This document shows, piece by piece, positions 35,691 through 45,421 of a DNA stretch of 64,000 nt. The stretch covers positions 3,611,501 through 3,675,500 of the forward strand of contig NZ_AP028679.1 in the NCBI RefSeq assembly GCF_037076455.1, written 5' to 3'. Below the pieces are notes generated by a model that had not been told where the DNA came from, made no database searches, and saw nothing but the letters and a program-made list of their open reading frames with translations. A program made the position numbers and the translations under genes. Every line of letters begins with the position of its first letter. The stretch's first letter is position 1. This stretch comes from Desulfoferula mesophila (GTDB taxonomy: Bacteria; Desulfobacterota; Desulfarculia; Desulfarculales; Desulfarculaceae).

Positions 35691-36099
35691 GCTTTCCATC
35701 CCCCCCAGGACATGGCAGACCCGCCCCGGGGCCCTCCACTTTTCGAGCGGTTTTTAGAGCTTCATGCCCCAGCGGCAAAAAGGCTTTGAATAACCGCGCC
35801 GCCTGGACGCGTCTTCCCTGTTCAGCAACCATTTGATCTTGCTATTTAACGGCAATATTACCGTATTTTAAGCTGCTATACGATTATTTGCATGCTATGC
35901 ATTTGTATTGCTATTTAGTTTAAACGACTGTTATTTATTTCATTTATATTTTGCTAGACGGACTACGGCCCGTTACGGTTGGTCGGCAACAAGGCAGGGG
36001 TGAGCCCGCGAGCCTCCAGCCGGAAAGGTGGCGCTTGGGGTCAGGAGAAAGCGAATGACCGAGCGCGCTGCTTTTAATTCTTTAAGGAGAAAAAGGCAT
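35691..36099. other. AT-rich island and leader upstream of porin gene 1
   Basis: No gene. Bases from about 35835 to 35960 are strikingly AT-rich in this GC-rich genome (runs such as TTATTTATTTCATTTATATT), then the leader becomes GC-rich until TTTAAGGAGA, the ribosome-binding site of the gene at 36100. It probably holds the promoter and UP-type elements. The 25-nt inverted repeat of porin leaders 2 and 3 is not found here. Confidence 0.6.
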
Positions 36100-37254
36100 A
36101 TGAAAAGGCTAGTAATCATTGCCGTCGCGGTCATGATGGCTATGTCGGTGGCGATTCCCGCCTTGGCGGCGGAAGCACCGACTTACACCTTCGAGATGGC
36201 CGCCCGCATGCTGACCGACATTGGTTGGGATCAGCAGAGTGCCGAGCAGACCCGCAACAAGGAAACCTCCGTCGGCAGCTGGTTTGTCAACATGCCCGGC
36301 CACAGCTACCTGCAAGCCCGCTTCTACAGCGTGGACAAGAACGTGGGTGGCCGTGTCGAGTTGGGCCTCGCCTCTTATAACGGCTCCGCCACCACCAGCC
36401 TGCGTTACGCGTACGGCTACTGGCGCGTGGGCAACTGCCGCATTCTGGCCGGCCAGACCGACAACTGGTTCGGCTCCCTGGCTTACCACATTCAACAGTA
36501 CGTGGGTCTCAACGAGAGCGCCCACCTGTTGATGTTCGGCTGGGGCTTCCTGTGGCCCGGTCGTGTGCCCCAGGTGCAGTTCACCTACAACACCGAGCAG
36601 TGGGGCGTGCAGTTCGCCCTGGAGCAGCCCACCAGCACCTCCGACACCTTCTGGGAGGGCACTGTCATTCCGGCCGCCACCACGGACTTCTACTATCAGG
36701 TGCCCCGCATGAGCTTGACCTTCATGTTCAAGTTCGGCGGCTTCATGACTCACCCCGGCGTCATGTGGAGCCAACACCAGTATGAGCAGGGCGACAACCT
36801 GGGCTTCGGCGAGAACTGGGACACCTGGGCCTTCGTGCTCCCCATCAAGTACACCGCCGGCGCCTTCACCCTGAAGTTCCAGGGCCACTACGGCCAGAAC
36901 TTCTTCGGTGAGATTCCCTTCTACACCAAGGACACCACCGCTCCCACGGTCAACGCCAGCGGCGAGGTCGAGGACACCATCATCTACGGCGGCGTGATCG
37001 CCGGCGAGTACACCATCGGCAAGATCATGATCACCGGTGGTTTCGGCTACGAGAACTTCCAGAACGACCAGTGGTCCGTCAACGGCGACGACACCATCAG
37101 CCGTTGGGGCGCCTTCATCGCGGTGCCCTACCAGTTCACCAAGAACTTTGGTGTGCACCCCGAGTTCAGCTACTATGACTACGACAACAACTCCAATGGC
37201 ACCGACGCCGGCAACGAGTGGTTGCTGGGTGTCCAGTTCCGCTTCGTCTTCTAA
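36100..37254 (+). CDS. Porin-like outer-membrane protein, tandem paralogue 1
   Basis: 384 residues. Signal peptide MKRLVIIAVAVMMAMSVAIP with cleavage after ALAA. The mature part is a Tyr/Trp/Phe-rich beta barrel (YAYGYWRVGNCRILAGQTDN, WGVQFALEQPTSTSDTFW) ending FRFVF, the aromatic C-terminus recognised by the BAM complex. I do not recognise a substrate; the layout is of a general porin of Desulfobacterota type. ATG 36100 follows AAGGAGA. It is the most diverged of three adjacent paralogues (36100, 37649, 39204), with its own leader and terminator. Use of abundant codons suggests high expression. Confidence 0.75.
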   Translation: MKRLVIIAVAVMMAMSVAIPALAAEAPTYTFEMAARMLTDIGWDQQSAEQTRNKETSVGSWFVNMPGHSYLQARFYSVDKNVGGRVELGLASYNGSATTSLRYAYGYWRVGNCRILAGQTDNWFGSLAYHIQQYVGLNESAHLLMFGWGFLWPGRVPQVQFTYNTEQWGVQFALEQPTSTSDTFWEGTVIPAATTDFYYQVPRMSLTFMFKFGGFMTHPGVMWSQHQYEQGDNLGFGENWDTWAFVLPIKYTAGAFTLKFQGHYGQNFFGEIPFYTKDTTAPTVNASGEVEDTIIYGGVIAGEYTIGKIMITGGFGYENFQNDQWSVNGDDTISRWGAFIAVPYQFTKNFGVHPEFSYYDYDNNSNGTDAGNEWLLGVQFRFVF

Positions 37255-37284
37255 GACGATCCTGAACTCTTAAAAAATCACCCC

Positions 37285-37320
37285 AAAGCGGCCGGGGCCT
37301 CGCGCCCCGGCCGCTTTTTT
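37285..37320 (+). terminator. Intrinsic terminator of porin gene 1
   Basis: AAAGCGGCCGGGGC pairs with GCCCCGGCCGCTTT around a short CTC-containing loop, then T6. The same stem ends porin gene 2. Confidence 0.9.
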
Positions 37321-37536
37321 GCCCCACTGCCCGAATCCCTGCCCAACAGCCCGCCTGCCAACGCCCGTCAACCGGCAAGGCTCAATCCGGTTTATTTTAG
37401 CTATGTAAACAAGTTCGCCGTTTATTCACACAAATTTAGTTGCTAATTTATATGATATTAATTTCATTTACTTTTTAATGTGCCACTTATCGCTTGCCTT
37501 TTGAATTTATTACAAGGTAAAAACACATAGAACATC

Positions 37537-37561
37537 GTTCGGTAGCTATACAACACCGGAC
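37537..37561 (+). promoter_or_regulatory. 25-nt inverted repeat over the putative -10 of porin gene 2
   Basis: GTTCGGTA-N9-CACCGGAC contains TATACA (37547-37552), a likely -10 box without a consensus -35. The matching site at 39093-39117 reads GTTCAGTA-N9-TACTGGAC, so the fifth pair changes from G-C to A-T and keeps pairing. Confidence 0.6.
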
Positions 37562-37564
37562 ACG

Positions 37565-37588
37565 AGGCCTTGCCCGGCAGCAGGGCCT
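37565..37588 (+). promoter_or_regulatory. 5' leader stem-loop of porin gene 2
   Basis: A 9-bp stem AGGCCTTGC / GCAGGGCCT with loop CCGGCA, directly after the inverted repeat; probably at the very 5' end of the mRNA, where it could stabilise it. Confidence 0.5.
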
Positions 37589-37648
37589 TGAGGAGCGTCT
37601 TCCAAGGGGGAAGGCGCATGACACCTAGGAGAAAACGGAGAAAACATC

Positions 37649-38806
37649 ATGAAGAAGCTGATTACTATTTTGGTGGCGTTGGCGGCCATGCTGGCCGTCG
37701 CCGTCCCGGCCATGGCTGCGGCTGCGCCGAGCTACACTTTTGAGATGGCCGCTCGTATGCTGACCGACATCGGATGGCAGCAGCAAAGCGCCGAGCAGAC
37801 CCGCAACGGCGAGACCTCCGTGGGCAGTTGGTTCGTCAACGTGCCCGGCCACAGCTACCTGCGGGCCCGCTTTTACAGCGTGGACAAGAACGTGGGTGGC
37901 CGCATCGAGTTGGGCCTGAAGTCCCTCAACGGCTCCGCCACCACCAGCCTGCGTTACGCCTACGGCTACTGGCGCGTGGGCAACTGCCGGATCCTGGCCG
38001 GCCAGACCGACAACTGGTTCGGCTCCTCGGCCTACGCTCCCAAGCAGTACGTGGGTCTCAGCGAGAACTCGCACCTGCTGATGTTCGGTTGGGGCTTCGT
38101 GTGGCCCGGCCGTATCCCCCAGGTGCAGTTCACCTACAACACCGAGCAGTGGGGCATCCAGTTCGCCCTGGAGCAGCCCAGCAGCGCCTCCGACACCTTC
38201 TGGGACGGCACCGTCATTCCGGCCGCCACCCAGGACTTCTACTACCAGGTGCCCCGCATGAGCTTGACCGCTATGTTCAAGTTCGGCGCCTTCATGACCA
38301 GCCCCGGCGTCATGTGGAGCCAGCACCAGTATGAGCAGGGCGACGACCTTGGCTTCGGCGAGAACTGGGACACCTGGGCCATCGTGTTGCCCGCCAAGTA
38401 CACCGCCGGCGCCTTCACCCTGAAGTTCCAGGCGCACTACGGCCAGAACTTCTGGGGTGAGATTCCCTTCTACACCAAGGACACCACCGCTCCCAAGGTC
38501 AACGCCAGCGGCGAGGTCGAGGACACCATCGTCTACGGCGGTCTGCTGGCCGGCGAGTACACCATCGGCAAGATCATGATCACCGGTGGCTTCGGCTACG
38601 AGAACTTCCAGAACGACCAGTGGAGCACTGGCGGCGGCGACGACAGCATCAGCCGCTGGGGCGCCTTCGTGGCCGTGCCCTACCAGTTCACCAAGAACTT
38701 CGGTATCCACCCCGAGTTCAGCTACTACGACTACGACAAGAACTCCGACGGCACCGACGCCGGCAACGAGTGGTTGCTGGGTGTCCAGTTCCGCTTCATC
38801 TTCTAA
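37649..38806 (+). CDS. Porin-like outer-membrane protein, tandem paralogue 2
   Basis: 385 residues, very similar to the product of 39204-40361 over its whole length and somewhat less to 36100-37254. Signal peptide MKKLITILVALAAMLAVAVP, cleavage near AMAA. The barrel segments (RIELGLKSLNGSATTSLRYA, DFYYQVPRMSLTAMFKFGAF) and the C-terminal FRFIF are shared. The ribosome-binding region AGGAGAAAACGGAGAAAAC is the same as in copy 3. Differences among copies cluster in short loop-like stretches (for example SAYAPKQYVG against LAYHIQQYVG in copy 1), as expected for surface loops. Likely function is diffusion of small solutes; substrate unknown. Confidence 0.75.
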   Translation: MKKLITILVALAAMLAVAVPAMAAAAPSYTFEMAARMLTDIGWQQQSAEQTRNGETSVGSWFVNVPGHSYLRARFYSVDKNVGGRIELGLKSLNGSATTSLRYAYGYWRVGNCRILAGQTDNWFGSSAYAPKQYVGLSENSHLLMFGWGFVWPGRIPQVQFTYNTEQWGIQFALEQPSSASDTFWDGTVIPAATQDFYYQVPRMSLTAMFKFGAFMTSPGVMWSQHQYEQGDDLGFGENWDTWAIVLPAKYTAGAFTLKFQAHYGQNFWGEIPFYTKDTTAPKVNASGEVEDTIVYGGLLAGEYTIGKIMITGGFGYENFQNDQWSTGGGDDSISRWGAFVAVPYQFTKNFGIHPEFSYYDYDKNSDGTDAGNEWLLGVQFRFIF

Positions 38807-38834
38807 GACGATCCTGAACGCCTAAATAGCGCCC

Positions 38835-38870
38835 AAAGCGGCCGGGGCCTCGCGCCCCGGCCGCTTTTTT
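38835..38870 (+). terminator. Intrinsic terminator of porin gene 2
   Basis: The same stem and T6 tail as at 37285-37320. Confidence 0.9.
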
Positions 38871-39092
38871 GCCCCCACCGCCTCGCCCGCCACCGGACAA
38901 TCCTCCCAGGCCCCCGCCCATCCGCGGCAGGCGCCCTCATCCTTTTTGTTTAAGCTTATTAATAAAAAATGTTAATTAGTCACATATTATTGGTGCCTAA
39001 TCATTTATATGATTGTTTTTACTGTTAAATAAATTATTAAATTTTCTGCTTGCAATTTGAAATAAATGAGAGATATATAACATAAGACTTTT

Positions 39093-39117
39093 GTTCAGTA
39101 GCTATACAATACTGGAC
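39093..39117 (+). promoter_or_regulatory. 25-nt inverted repeat over the putative -10 of porin gene 3
   Basis: GTTCAGTA-N9-TACTGGAC with TATACA at 39103-39108; counterpart of 37537-37561. Confidence 0.6.
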
Positions 39118-39119
39118 AC

Positions 39120-39145
39120 AAGGCCCCGTTCGGCAGCGGGGCCTT
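39120..39145 (+). promoter_or_regulatory. 5' leader stem-loop of porin gene 3
   Basis: AAGGCCCC and GGGGCCTT arms around a 10-nt loop, in the same position as the stem-loop of porin gene 2 but with a different stem sequence. Confidence 0.5.
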
Positions 39146-39203
39146 GGGAGGCGCCCTCGATGGTGGGGGCGCATACCATCAAGGAGAAAACGGAGAAAAC
39201 ATC

Positions 39204-40361
39204 ATGAAGAAGCTATTGACTATTTTGGTGGCGCTGGCGGCCATGCTGGCCATCGCCGCCCCGGCCATGGCGGCGGAAGCGCCGAGCTACACCTTTGACA
39301 TGGCCGCTCGTATGCTGACCGACATCGGCTGGCAGCAGCAAAGCGCCGAGCAGACCCGCAACGGCGAGACCTCCGTGGGCGGCTGGTTCGTCAACTTGCC
39401 TGGGCACAGCTACCTGCGGGCCCGCTTTTACAGCGTGGACAAGAACGTGGGTGGCCGCATCGAGTTGGGCCTGAAGTCCCTCAACGGCTCCGCCACCACC
39501 AGCCTGCGTTATGCCTACGGCTACTGGCGCGTGGGCAACTGCCGCATCCTGGCCGGCCAGACCGACAACTGGTTCGGCTCCTCGGCCTACGCTCCCAAGC
39601 AGTACGTGGGTCTCAGCGAGAACTCGCACCTGTTGATGTTCGGCTGGGGCTTCGCGTGGGGTGGTCGTATCCCCCAGGCGCAAATCACCTACAGCACCGA
39701 GCAGTGGGGCGTGCAGTTCGCGGTGGAGCAGCCCACCAGCGCTTCCGACTCCTTCTGGGAAGGCACCATCATTCCGGCCGCCACCCAGGACTTCTACTAT
39801 CAGGTGCCCCGCATGAGCTTGACCGGTATGTTCAAGTTCGGCGCCTTCATGACCAACCCCGGCGTCATGTGGAGCCAGCACCAGTATGAGCAGGGTGACA
39901 ACATCGGCTTCGGCGAGAACTGGGACACCTGGGCCATCGTGCTGCCCGTCAAGTTCAGCGCCGGCGCCTTCACCGCCAAGTTCCAGGCTCACTACGGCCA
40001 GAACTTCTTCGGTGAGATTCCCTTCTACACCAAGGACACCACCGCTCCCACGGTCAACGCCAGTGGCGAGGTCGAGGACACCATCATCTACGGTGGCCTG
40101 CTGGCCGGCGAATACACCATCGGCAAGCTCATGATCACCGCGGGTTTCGGCTACGAGAACTTCCAGAACGACCAGTGGAGCACCGGCGGCGGCGATGACA
40201 GCATCGAGCGCTGGGGCGCCTTTGTGGCCGTGCCCTACCAGTTCACCCAGAACTTCGGTATCCACCCCGAGTTCGCCTACTACGACTACGACAAGAACTC
40301 CGACGGCACCGATGCCGGCAACGAGTGGCTGCTAGGCGTTCAGTTCCGCTTCATCTTCTAA
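39204..40361 (+). CDS. Porin-like outer-membrane protein, tandem paralogue 3
   Basis: 385 residues: signal peptide MKKLLTILVALAAMLAIAAP with AMA-A cleavage, then the same barrel as copies 1 and 2, ending FRFIF. Distinctive replacements include IPQAQITYSTEQ for VQFTYNTEQ and LPVKFSAGAFTAKFQ for LPAKYTAGAFTLKFQ. ATG 39204 follows AAGGAGAAAACGGAG; an upstream in-frame ATG at 39144 would place non-signal sequence before the signal peptide and is rejected. It is the last gene of the array and is followed by a different hairpin terminator. The three genes are separate transcription units. Confidence 0.75.
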   Translation: MKKLLTILVALAAMLAIAAPAMAAEAPSYTFDMAARMLTDIGWQQQSAEQTRNGETSVGGWFVNLPGHSYLRARFYSVDKNVGGRIELGLKSLNGSATTSLRYAYGYWRVGNCRILAGQTDNWFGSSAYAPKQYVGLSENSHLLMFGWGFAWGGRIPQAQITYSTEQWGVQFAVEQPTSASDSFWEGTIIPAATQDFYYQVPRMSLTGMFKFGAFMTNPGVMWSQHQYEQGDNIGFGENWDTWAIVLPVKFSAGAFTAKFQAHYGQNFFGEIPFYTKDTTAPTVNASGEVEDTIIYGGLLAGEYTIGKLMITAGFGYENFQNDQWSTGGGDDSIERWGAFVAVPYQFTQNFGIHPEFAYYDYDKNSDGTDAGNEWLLGVQFRFIF

Positions 40362-42535: not shown

Positions 42536-42699
42536 GAGACTGCCCCCTGCCGGCCCCCGGCCACCCCCCTCAAGTGAGGAATTTCACACCAAAATAGTAG
42601 AAAAATCAATTTGGCCACTTGCGAAAGGCCTTTTCAATTGCCATATTCTATGACATAGAGATGAACTCTAGAAAGTTCCCAGTACGGAAAGGATACATC

Positions 42700-43038
42700 A
42701 TGGTCGAAGTTACCCCCGCGGCCAGCAAAGCCATCCAGGGCTTTATGAAGGAAAAGGATCTGGACCAGCCCTTGCGGGTTTTCCTGCAAAGCGGCGGCTG
42801 AGGTGGCCCCAGCCTGCGCTTGGTTCTGGATGAACCAAAGGAAAACGACGACAAGTACGAGGTTGACGGTCTGACCTACCTTATCGACAAGGATCTGTCC
42901 TCCAACAGCGGCAAGATCACGGTGGACTTCGTGGACAACGGCTGGCAACAGGGCTTCACGGTAAACGCCGAGAAACCCCTGGTCTCCGAGGGCGACAGTT
43001 GCTCCACCAGCGGCGGCTGCTCCAGCTGCGGTCACTAG
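42700..43038 (+). CDS. HesB/IscA-like selenoprotein (in-frame UGA read as selenocysteine)
   Basis: A-type iron-sulfur carriers hold Fe or an Fe-S cluster with three Cys. Translating through the TGA at 42799-42801 gives 112 residues with the HesB fold: VTPAASKAIQGFMKEKD, LRVFLQSGGUGGPSLRLVLD, a central strand region, and a tail with Cys101, Cys107 and Cys110 (CSTSGGCSSCGH). Sec34 takes the place of the first conserved Cys (IscA C35, motif GGCSG). The frame, similarity and composition continue without a break after TGA, and a hairpin lies just downstream, so this is not a nonsense mutation. HesB-like selenoproteins are a described family. ATG 42700 follows GGAAAGGA. Confidence 0.85.
42809..42829 (+). 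promoter_or_regulatory. Candidate bacterial SECIS hairpin
   Basis: Stem CCAG/CTGG plus CC/GG (bulged TT) with a 7-nt loop TGCGCTT, starting 8 nt after the UGA, the region where bacterial SECIS elements lie. Fold inferred by eye. Confidence 0.5.
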
Positions 43039-43093
43039 ATATAAGACCTGCATAATCCGGAGGCGGGCCTCATTGCCCGTCTCCGGGATATTT

Positions 43094-43555: not shown

Positions 43556-43684
43556 GGTTTCTCCCGCTGGTTGTGGCTCCCACGGCGCATCCCCGCCCCT
43601 TGGCCCATGCCGGGCCTATAACGGGGGCCTGTGCTATATTTACACTACTTAGGCCGACTTACCAAAGCAAAGGATTATCCGCCC

Positions 43685-45421
43685 TTGCCCTCCTCCACCT
43701 GGCCCCTGGCCCAACATCATCGCGCCCTGCTGGACGCCGAAACCGGCGCGGTGGTCAAGGACCCCGGCGGGCGGCTCAACGTGGCCCTGATCTTTCCCAA
43801 CACCTACCAGGTGGGCATGGCCAACCTGGGCCTGCACGCCATCTACCGCATCATCAATCAGCGCTCGGACGCCCTGTGCGAGCGGGCCTTTTTGCCGGGC
43901 CGGGCCGAGGAGCCCCTCTACGCCAAGAGCGGCGCCCCCCTGCTCACCCTGGAGTCCTCGCGGCCGGTGGCCTCCTTCGACCTGGTGCTGGCCAGCCTTT
44001 GCTTTGAAAACGACGCCCCCAACCTCATCAAGATGCTGGCCCACGCCGGGCTGGGCACCCGCCGGGCCTCGCGGCGGGGCCCCTGGGTGGTGGCGGGGGG
44101 GGTCTATCCCATGCTCAACCCCGAGCCCCTGGCCGAGGTGATGGACGCCTTTGTGCTGGGCGAGGCCGAGGTGGTGCTGGAGCCCTTTTTGGAGGCCTTC
44201 ACGGCCCTGGGCGGCCTAGGCCAGGAAGAGGCCCTGCGCGCCATGGCCCAACGGGTGCCGGGCTTTTACGCCCCCTCGCTCTACCAGGCCGCCTACGCCC
44301 CGGACGGCACCCTGGCCTCCTTTACCCCGGAAGAGGGCCTGCCCCCCCAAGTGGCCGCTCCCAAGTACCGGGGCCCGGCGGCGGGCCTGGCCCGCAGCGT
44401 CATCAGCGCCCCGGGGGTGGAGTTCGGGGAAATGACCCTCATCGAGGTGGGCCGGGGTTGCGGCCACGGCTGCCGTTTCTGCGCCGCCGGGCACATCTAT
44501 CGCCCGCCCCGCCTGGGCCAGGCATCCGACTTCGCGCCCCTGGCCCTGGCCACCGCGGCCCAAGGCGGCAAGCTGGGCCTGGTCTCGGCGGCGGTGAGCG
44601 ACATCGAGGACGTGGCCAGATTGGCGGGGGAGATCGTGGCCGCCGGGGGCAGCCTGTCGGTGTCCAGCCTCCGGGCCGACCGCCTGAGCCCGGAGCTGGC
44701 CGCGGCCCTGGCCGCCAGCCGCCACCAGACCGTGGCCCTGGCCCCGGAGGCGGGCAGCCAGCGGCTGCGCGACATCATCAACAAGCACCTGGACCAGGAC
44801 GACCTGGGCCGGGCGGTGGAGACCCTGATCAGCGCCGGGGTGCCCAACCTGCGCCTCTACTTCATGGTGGGCCTGCCCGGCGAACAGGAGGGGGACATCG
44901 ACGAGCTCATCGACCTGGTGCGTTCCCTGCGCCAGCAGGTGGTGAGCTTCTCCCGGGCCAAGGGGCACCTGGGGCGGGTGACCGTGAGCCTCAACGCCTT
45001 TGTGCCCAAGCCCTTCACCCCCTTCCAGTGGGAGCCCATGGCCCCGCTGAAGCTCATCAAGGCGCGGGTCAAGAAGGTGCAAAAGGCCCTGGCCGGGGCG
45101 GCCAACCTCAAGGTGATCAGCGACGTGCCCAAGTACGCCCGTTTGCAGGCGGTGCTGGCCCGGGGCGACCGCCGCCTCACCCCCCTGCTGGAGATATTGG
45201 CCCAGGGGCTGCCCGCCGAGAGGGCCTACGGCGAAGCCGGCGTGGACCCGGAGTTTTTCGCCCACCGCCGGCGGGAAAAGGACGAGCTTTTACCCTGGGA
45301 CTTTATTGACCACGGCATAAGCCGCGACTATCTTTGGAATGAGGCCGAGCGGTCCCGGACCCAAAAACAAAGCCCGGTCTGCGCACCGGACACCTGCCGC
45401 CGCTGCGGCGCATGCTCCTGA
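43685..45421 (+). CDS. Radical SAM protein of the TIGR03960/YgiQ-like type
   Basis: About 578 residues. The N-terminal 200 residues form a B12-binding-like Rossmann domain (LNVALIFPNTYQVGMANLGL, VVAGGVYPMLNPEPLAEVMD, FVLGEAEVV). The radical SAM core carries GRGCGHGCRFCAAGHIY (C-x3-C-x2-C for the 4Fe-4S cluster), APEAGSQRLRDIINKHL and YFMVGLPGEQEGDIDELI. A Cys-rich tail (CAPDTCRRCGAC) ends the protein. The reaction is unknown. TTG 43685, 10 bases after AAAGGA, is my start; the frame also contains GTG 43631, but that would place the start on a TATATT -10-like box. It lies 6 bp before the DUF6178-like gene. Confidence 0.8.
   Translation: MPSSTWPLAQHHRALLDAETGAVVKDPGGRLNVALIFPNTYQVGMANLGLHAIYRIINQRSDALCERAFLPGRAEEPLYAKSGAPLLTLESSRPVASFDLVLASLCFENDAPNLIKMLAHAGLGTRRASRRGPWVVAGGVYPMLNPEPLAEVMDAFVLGEAEVVLEPFLEAFTALGGLGQEEALRAMAQRVPGFYAPSLYQAAYAPDGTLASFTPEEGLPPQVAAPKYRGPAAGLARSVISAPGVEFGEMTLIEVGRGCGHGCRFCAAGHIYRPPRLGQASDFAPLALATAAQGGKLGLVSAAVSDIEDVARLAGEIVAAGGSLSVSSLRADRLSPELAAALAASRHQTVALAPEAGSQRLRDIINKHLDQDDLGRAVETLISAGVPNLRLYFMVGLPGEQEGDIDELIDLVRSLRQQVVSFSRAKGHLGRVTVSLNAFVPKPFTPFQWEPMAPLKLIKARVKKVQKALAGAANLKVISDVPKYARLQAVLARGDRRLTPLLEILAQGLPAERAYGEAGVDPEFFAHRRREKDELLPWDFIDHGISRDYLWNEAERSRTQKQSPVCAPDTCRRCGACS

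Follow-up and report, generated by a model that had tools for sequence, protein, structure and literature searches.

Evidence for a HesB/IscA-like selenoprotein gene in Desulfoferula mesophila, a further member of a known family

Introduction

As early as 2005, HesB was named among the known selenoproteins (PMC1242214). A 2006 survey listed 11 bacterial HesB-like selenoproteins, several of them deltaproteobacterial, and described conversion of selenocysteine (Sec) to cysteine among them (PMC1794560). More recently, a 2026 review gave the motif UxGP for these proteins and used the model TIGR01911 for the entire HesB-like family (PMC13188914). Mutagenesis and 75Se labelling identified the HesB-like selenoprotein of M. 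maripaludis; disrupting the gene left nitrogen fixation unimpaired, and the protein's function was termed unclear (PMC11097638). A literature search that had most subscription journals outside its scope brought up no work on the function of any bacterial HesB-Se protein.

Here we analyse a candidate member of this family in Desulfoferula mesophila, whose genome (4.48 Mb, one contig, completeness 98.7%) contains the 64,000-nucleotide stretch studied here, referred to as the window. The gene resembles the bacterial HesB-like selenoproteins in its family score above the cut-off, the UxGP motif, the alternation of Sec with Cys, the downstream bSECIS hairpin and an anaerobic deltaproteobacterial host. 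Many members of NF038090 have a tail that ends in CGxSCSC, whereas the tail here is CSTSGGCSSCGH; we saw no other difference of substance. The M. maripaludis protein is likewise HesB-like and contains Sec, a likeness that we draw by description, but it is archaeal and has an archaeal-type SECIS, whereas the gene described here is bacterial (PMC11097638). IscA, SufA and ErpA agree with the present protein in predicted fold and in where the first cluster cysteine lies; unlike them, it would carry Sec in place of that cysteine and has a Cys tail that is longer and variable, and its scores lie far under their equivalog cut-offs.

The first-pass annotation of this DNA treated HesB-like selenoproteins as an established family, which is sound given that their cataloguing goes back to 2005 or earlier (PMC1242214, PMC1794560, PMC13188914). 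As anaerobic bacteria are already known to have this family, the gene is a further example and not a discovery. Its description corrects the annotation to one gene in place of two fragments and adds a well-supported case of recoding.

Results and Discussion

One reading frame across an in-frame UGA

At this locus a mechanical list of open reading frames contains two fragments only, 42619-42801 and 42820-43038, exactly those into which the first-pass annotation expected standard gene calling to split the gene. On re-reading the sequence, the boundaries it had assigned and the in-frame UGA were right (Table 1). On the plus strand the frame opens with ATG at 42700 and closes with TAG at 43036-43038, and the read-through protein is MVEVTPAASKAIQGFMKEKDLDQPLRVFLQSGGUGGPSLRLVLDEPKENDDKYEVDGLTYLIDKDLSSNSGKITVDFVDNGWQQGFTVNAEKPLVSEGDSCSTSGGCSSCGH. 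Both neighbours sit on the minus strand, so the gene is probably transcribed alone. We found no sigma-70 consensus promoter 5' of it, and an Rfam scan of the 64-kb window returned two tRNAs only.

Table 1. Features of the candidate selenoprotein locus, in window coordinates
Feature	Position	Strand	Evidence
Shine-Dalgarno-like GGAAAGGA, 6 nt 5' of the ATG	42686..42693	+	sequence inspection
Predicted CDS, HesB/IscA-like selenoprotein, 112 residues, Sec at residue 34	42700..43038	+	NF038090 114.9 bits, dN/dS
UGA, putative Sec codon, residue 34, UxGP motif, first IscA cluster Cys	42799..42801	+	family sample, IscA alignment
Predicted bSECIS hairpin UUGGUUC-UGGAU-GAACCAA, loop from 26th base after the UGA	42820..42838	+	Sec/Cys contrast, covariation
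Cys-rich tail: C101 (43000-43002), C107 (43018-43020), C110 (43027-43029)	43000..43029	+	tail Cys conservation
Terminator-like hairpin, 13 pairs, then ATATTTT	43056..43087	+	1 found vs 0.9 by chance (weak)

The two fragments are also what would be obtained if the UGA were a true stop, as in a pseudogene, after a sequencing error or between two unrelated short reading frames. Comparison with protein families argues for a single product. Scored against NCBIfam NF038090 ("IscA_HesB_Se"), the read-through protein reaches 114.9 bits, above the curated cut-off of 85, while the halves alone reach 26.3 and 60.1 bits and cover successive parts of the model. The cut-off of Pfam PF01521 is just reached. 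Against TIGR01911 (HesB_rel_seleno), a model of related HesB-like (seleno)proteins, the score of 43.1 bits is below the cut-off of 66.35, and we therefore file the gene under NF038090. The equivalog models for IscA, SufA and ErpA give 36.3, 35.6 and 29.5 bits against cut-offs of 150.6, 136.2 and 117, respectively. The UxGP motif reads UGGP here, with Sec on the first HesB cluster cysteine.

The UGA alternates with cysteine codons only

We searched for the NF038090 family across 395 genomes of the phylum and 63 of the class, and aligned 150 different read-outs from the fetched loci for a comparison of codons; the rows were picked by score, so the sample leans toward good family members. At the Sec position, 101 rows carry UGA and 48 a Cys codon, none has any other residue, and one distant row is gapped. 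Some UGA rows are one gene with differing read-out tails, and the distinct rows of downstream DNA number 97. Among near relatives, which are recorded as Desulfarculus and Desulfarculaceae and include genomes from the genus and the family of D. mesophila, the UGA is kept at 65-93% identity. A random residue in close relatives, which the first-pass annotation would have taken as evidence against its reading, was thus found nowhere in the sample, and set beside HesB selenoproteins and Cys homologues the position alternates between UGA and Cys exclusively.

Against the near relatives, dN/dS is 0.09-0.26 after the UGA and 0.04-0.31 before it (where computable), which indicates purifying selection on both sides of the codon. 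The values 3' of the UGA imply that the downstream half is protein. With the NF038090 model spanning both halves and dN/dS well below 1, the frame and the HesB similarity run past the UGA as originally proposed.

Genomes of the class that have the Sec form also have selA, with the exception of G437 (no match, 71% completeness) and of G427 and G439 (partial matches). Those with the Cys form only include some with selA and some without.

A bSECIS hairpin confined to the UGA genes

The hairpin downstream of the UGA lies within all of the published bSECIS limits, which are a loop of 3-9 nt, a stem of 4-16 bp, a distance of 16-37 nt from the UGA, a G within the first two loop bases and an energy of -7.5 kcal/mol or lower (PMC13188914). 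Here the loop UGGAU has 5 nt, the stem 7 bp, the distance from UGA to loop is 25 nt and the energy is -10.3 kcal/mol. Within the window, the 19-mer of the hairpin occurs once against 0.01 expected (with up to 3 mismatches).

The same structure recurs in the relatives. In 95 of the 97 distinct Sec rows, base 26 downstream of the UGA is the first of a five-base loop, UGGAY, and the five stem pairs closest to this loop are retained in 95-97 of the 97 rows. A bSECIS-like test was passed by 96 of 101 Sec genes compared to 14 of 48 Cys genes (Fisher p 3e-17). One stem pair covaries, being C-G in 73 rows and T-A in 23; its partners are the second position of a Val/Ala codon and the third position of a Glu codon. 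The exchange of GTT..GAA for GCT..GAG thus couples an amino-acid change to a synonymous one, which is unexplained by selection on the protein. In the Sec genes the six-pair total of 562 exceeded all 2000 column shuffles (mean 540, sd 1.9), while the total of 119 in the Cys genes (shuffled 108.6, sd 5.7) was reached by 87 of 2000. Shuffle tests of this kind are inflated when rows are related, as they are here, and the contrast between Sec and Cys genes is for this reason the better argument.

Folding energy of the single sequence is unremarkable, with z = 0.09 over 60 nt from the UGA onward and -0.98 for the hairpin window; neither is significant, and we rejected this measure as evidence for the hairpin. 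A 51-nt fold gave z = -2.22, but a second hairpin, with pairing across the UGA, forms part of it, and we set this value aside. Of the hairpin noted in the first-pass annotation, then, the presence held up, with conservation and covariation in Sec genes, whereas the energy of the 60-nt fold lent it nothing. The hairpin is convincing through this comparative evidence and not through single-sequence energy.

Sec-decoding genes of the genome

The first-pass annotation made its reading depend on Sec machinery elsewhere in the genome. Our search found every component sought: a tRNA-Sec with anticodon TCA, selA, selB and selD.

Taken together, the finding that 101 sampled genes share the UGA and every other aligned gene has Cys there, the low dN/dS after the UGA, the hairpin specific to Sec genes and the complete machinery refute a true stop or pseudogene as far as sequence allows, and we consider that explanation highly improbable. 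It could also be argued that UGA is reassigned in this lineage, for example to Trp, or suppressed, and is not recoded to Sec. We found no support for this in the material analysed; against it stand the exclusive exchange of UGA with Cys, the tRNA-Sec and SelB of the genome and a hairpin limited to genes with UGA. We rejected this explanation as well, and rate it as even more improbable than a true stop. The gene, its recoding signal, the Sec machinery and the family membership are strongly supported by these comparisons, and we put the probability that 42700-43038 is a real HesB/IscA-like selenoprotein gene of the known family at about 95%.

The selD gene is itself a selenoprotein gene, with an in-frame TGA in the active-site motif AAGUAAKI (G000 C1:3726958-3727884; L018:1486-2529, plus strand). 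Because selD has its own in-frame TGA, the genome contains at least two selenoprotein genes. A gene for a LysR-type regulator lies directly 5' of selD (L018:76-969).

Predicted fold and candidate ligands

In phmmer alignments the UGA residue falls on the first conserved cysteine of E. coli IscA (1r94/1s98) and of AQ_1857, the position at which it had been placed at first reading. An AlphaFold2 model of the protein has a mean pLDDT of 82, with the tail below 50 and disordered. The best PDB matches of this model in Foldseek are IscA and SufA (E 6.9e-8 to 5e-7), and the protein as modelled has the A-type (IscA) fold. The Cys-rich tail that had been predicted is present as C101, C107 and C110. At least three tail cysteines occur in 98 of the 101 Sec proteins and C101 is nearly invariant. 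Compared to the A-type ligand set of one core cysteine and a tail C-x-C, Sec34 stands at the first position, while the three tail cysteines are otherwise spaced and lie in the disordered part of the model.

We propose the following mechanism. SelB with Sec-tRNA-Sec would decode UGA 42799 as selenocysteine under the direction of the bSECIS hairpin at 42820-42838. The product would be a protein of 112 residues with an A-type (IscA) fold. The retention of the tail cysteines in 98 of 101 Sec proteins makes a ligand set of Sec34 and tail cysteines plausible, and these residues probably ligate iron or an Fe-S cluster. If selenium does ligate a cluster in a carrier, this would be chemically unusual. 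The protein would most likely act as an A-type carrier alongside a separate all-Cys paralogue, a role toward which we lean with some reserve, as the tail is disordered in the model and unlike that of IscA.

A-type proteins in the genome and the phylum

A-type proteins of the genome were counted with TIGR00049; a genome search with PF01521 missed even the HesB-Se gene. TIGR00049 finds two such proteins, both under its cut-off, namely HesB-Se and the Cys paralogue, and no canonical IscA, SufA or ErpA above its family cut-off is found in the genome. The all-Cys HesB paralogue (G000 C1:4184329-4184637; L093:5009-5338, minus strand) is 43% identical to HesB-Se. It adjoins an HmcF/HdrC-like gene, and a VhuD-like gene lies farther on.

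Among the 395 genomes of the phylum sample, NF038090 is found above its cut-off in 167 and a canonical A-type protein in 19, with both in only three (G088, G357 and G376). Fisher's test on this co-occurrence gives p 0.017, uncorrected for relatedness among species that are not independent. The near-exclusion fits a replacement of canonical A-type carriers by HesB-Se. By these cut-offs, 212 of the 395 genomes have neither, so that many evidently do without such a carrier.

Alternatively, the product could be a genuine selenoprotein with a function other than that of a cluster carrier, acting as a redox enzyme or as a binder of soft metals or metalloids (Hg, As, Se) with a reactive or binding Sec. 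A redox function is assumed for the majority of selenoproteins and metal binding has been suggested for some newer families (PMC13188914), and the many tail cysteines would suit such a role. An ArsB-like transporter gene also lies two genes upstream on the opposite strand, although its match is far below the cut-off (72.7 against 457 bits). The IscA fold with Sec on the cluster cysteine, the lack of a canonical A-type carrier above cut-off in the genome and the rare co-occurrence of the two types across the phylum all argue against this, and we regard a non-carrier function as unlikely, though worth keeping in mind.

Tandem pairs of Sec and Cys genes

In the phylum and class searches, 13 genomes carry adjacent Sec and Cys copies on the same strand (G014, G015, G088, G117, G171, G213, G277, G297, G340, G391, G427, G432 and G436; loci L055, L056, L063, L065, L066, L024-L026, L033, L046, L050 and L051). 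G428 has two Sec copies, and the D. mesophila genome has no tandem Sec/Cys pair. The partners in G427 are 79% identical to each other and at most 67% identical to any other sequence; that some partners are mutually closest points to a repeated origin of the pairs. A tree built from 97 columns, with many open forks, needs 14 changes between Sec and Cys, at least four of them forced by starred branches.

It could be speculated that HesB-Se proteins are the main A-type carriers in many anaerobic relatives without IscA, SufA and ErpA, using selenium as a ligand of cluster or iron, and that the tandem pairs provide mixed Se/S carriers or a selenium-dependent swap. We hold this wider proposal to be doubtful, somewhat more so than a non-carrier function. 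The near-exclusion with canonical carriers and the repeated tandem pairs are nonetheless testable leads for the family, and worth more than the gene itself.

Neighbourhood in the window

The genes around HesB-Se offer no clear functional pointer. Three tandem paralogous genes on the plus strand at 36028-40361 (36028-37254, 37649-38806 and 39144-40361), very alike by eye, encode outer-membrane beta-barrel or porin-like proteins of about 400 residues with weak, sub-cut-off Pfam matches only. At 43631-45421, on the plus strand, lies a gene for a B12-binding radical SAM protein near TIGR03960, with a score under the cut-off (384.2 against 462.3 bits).
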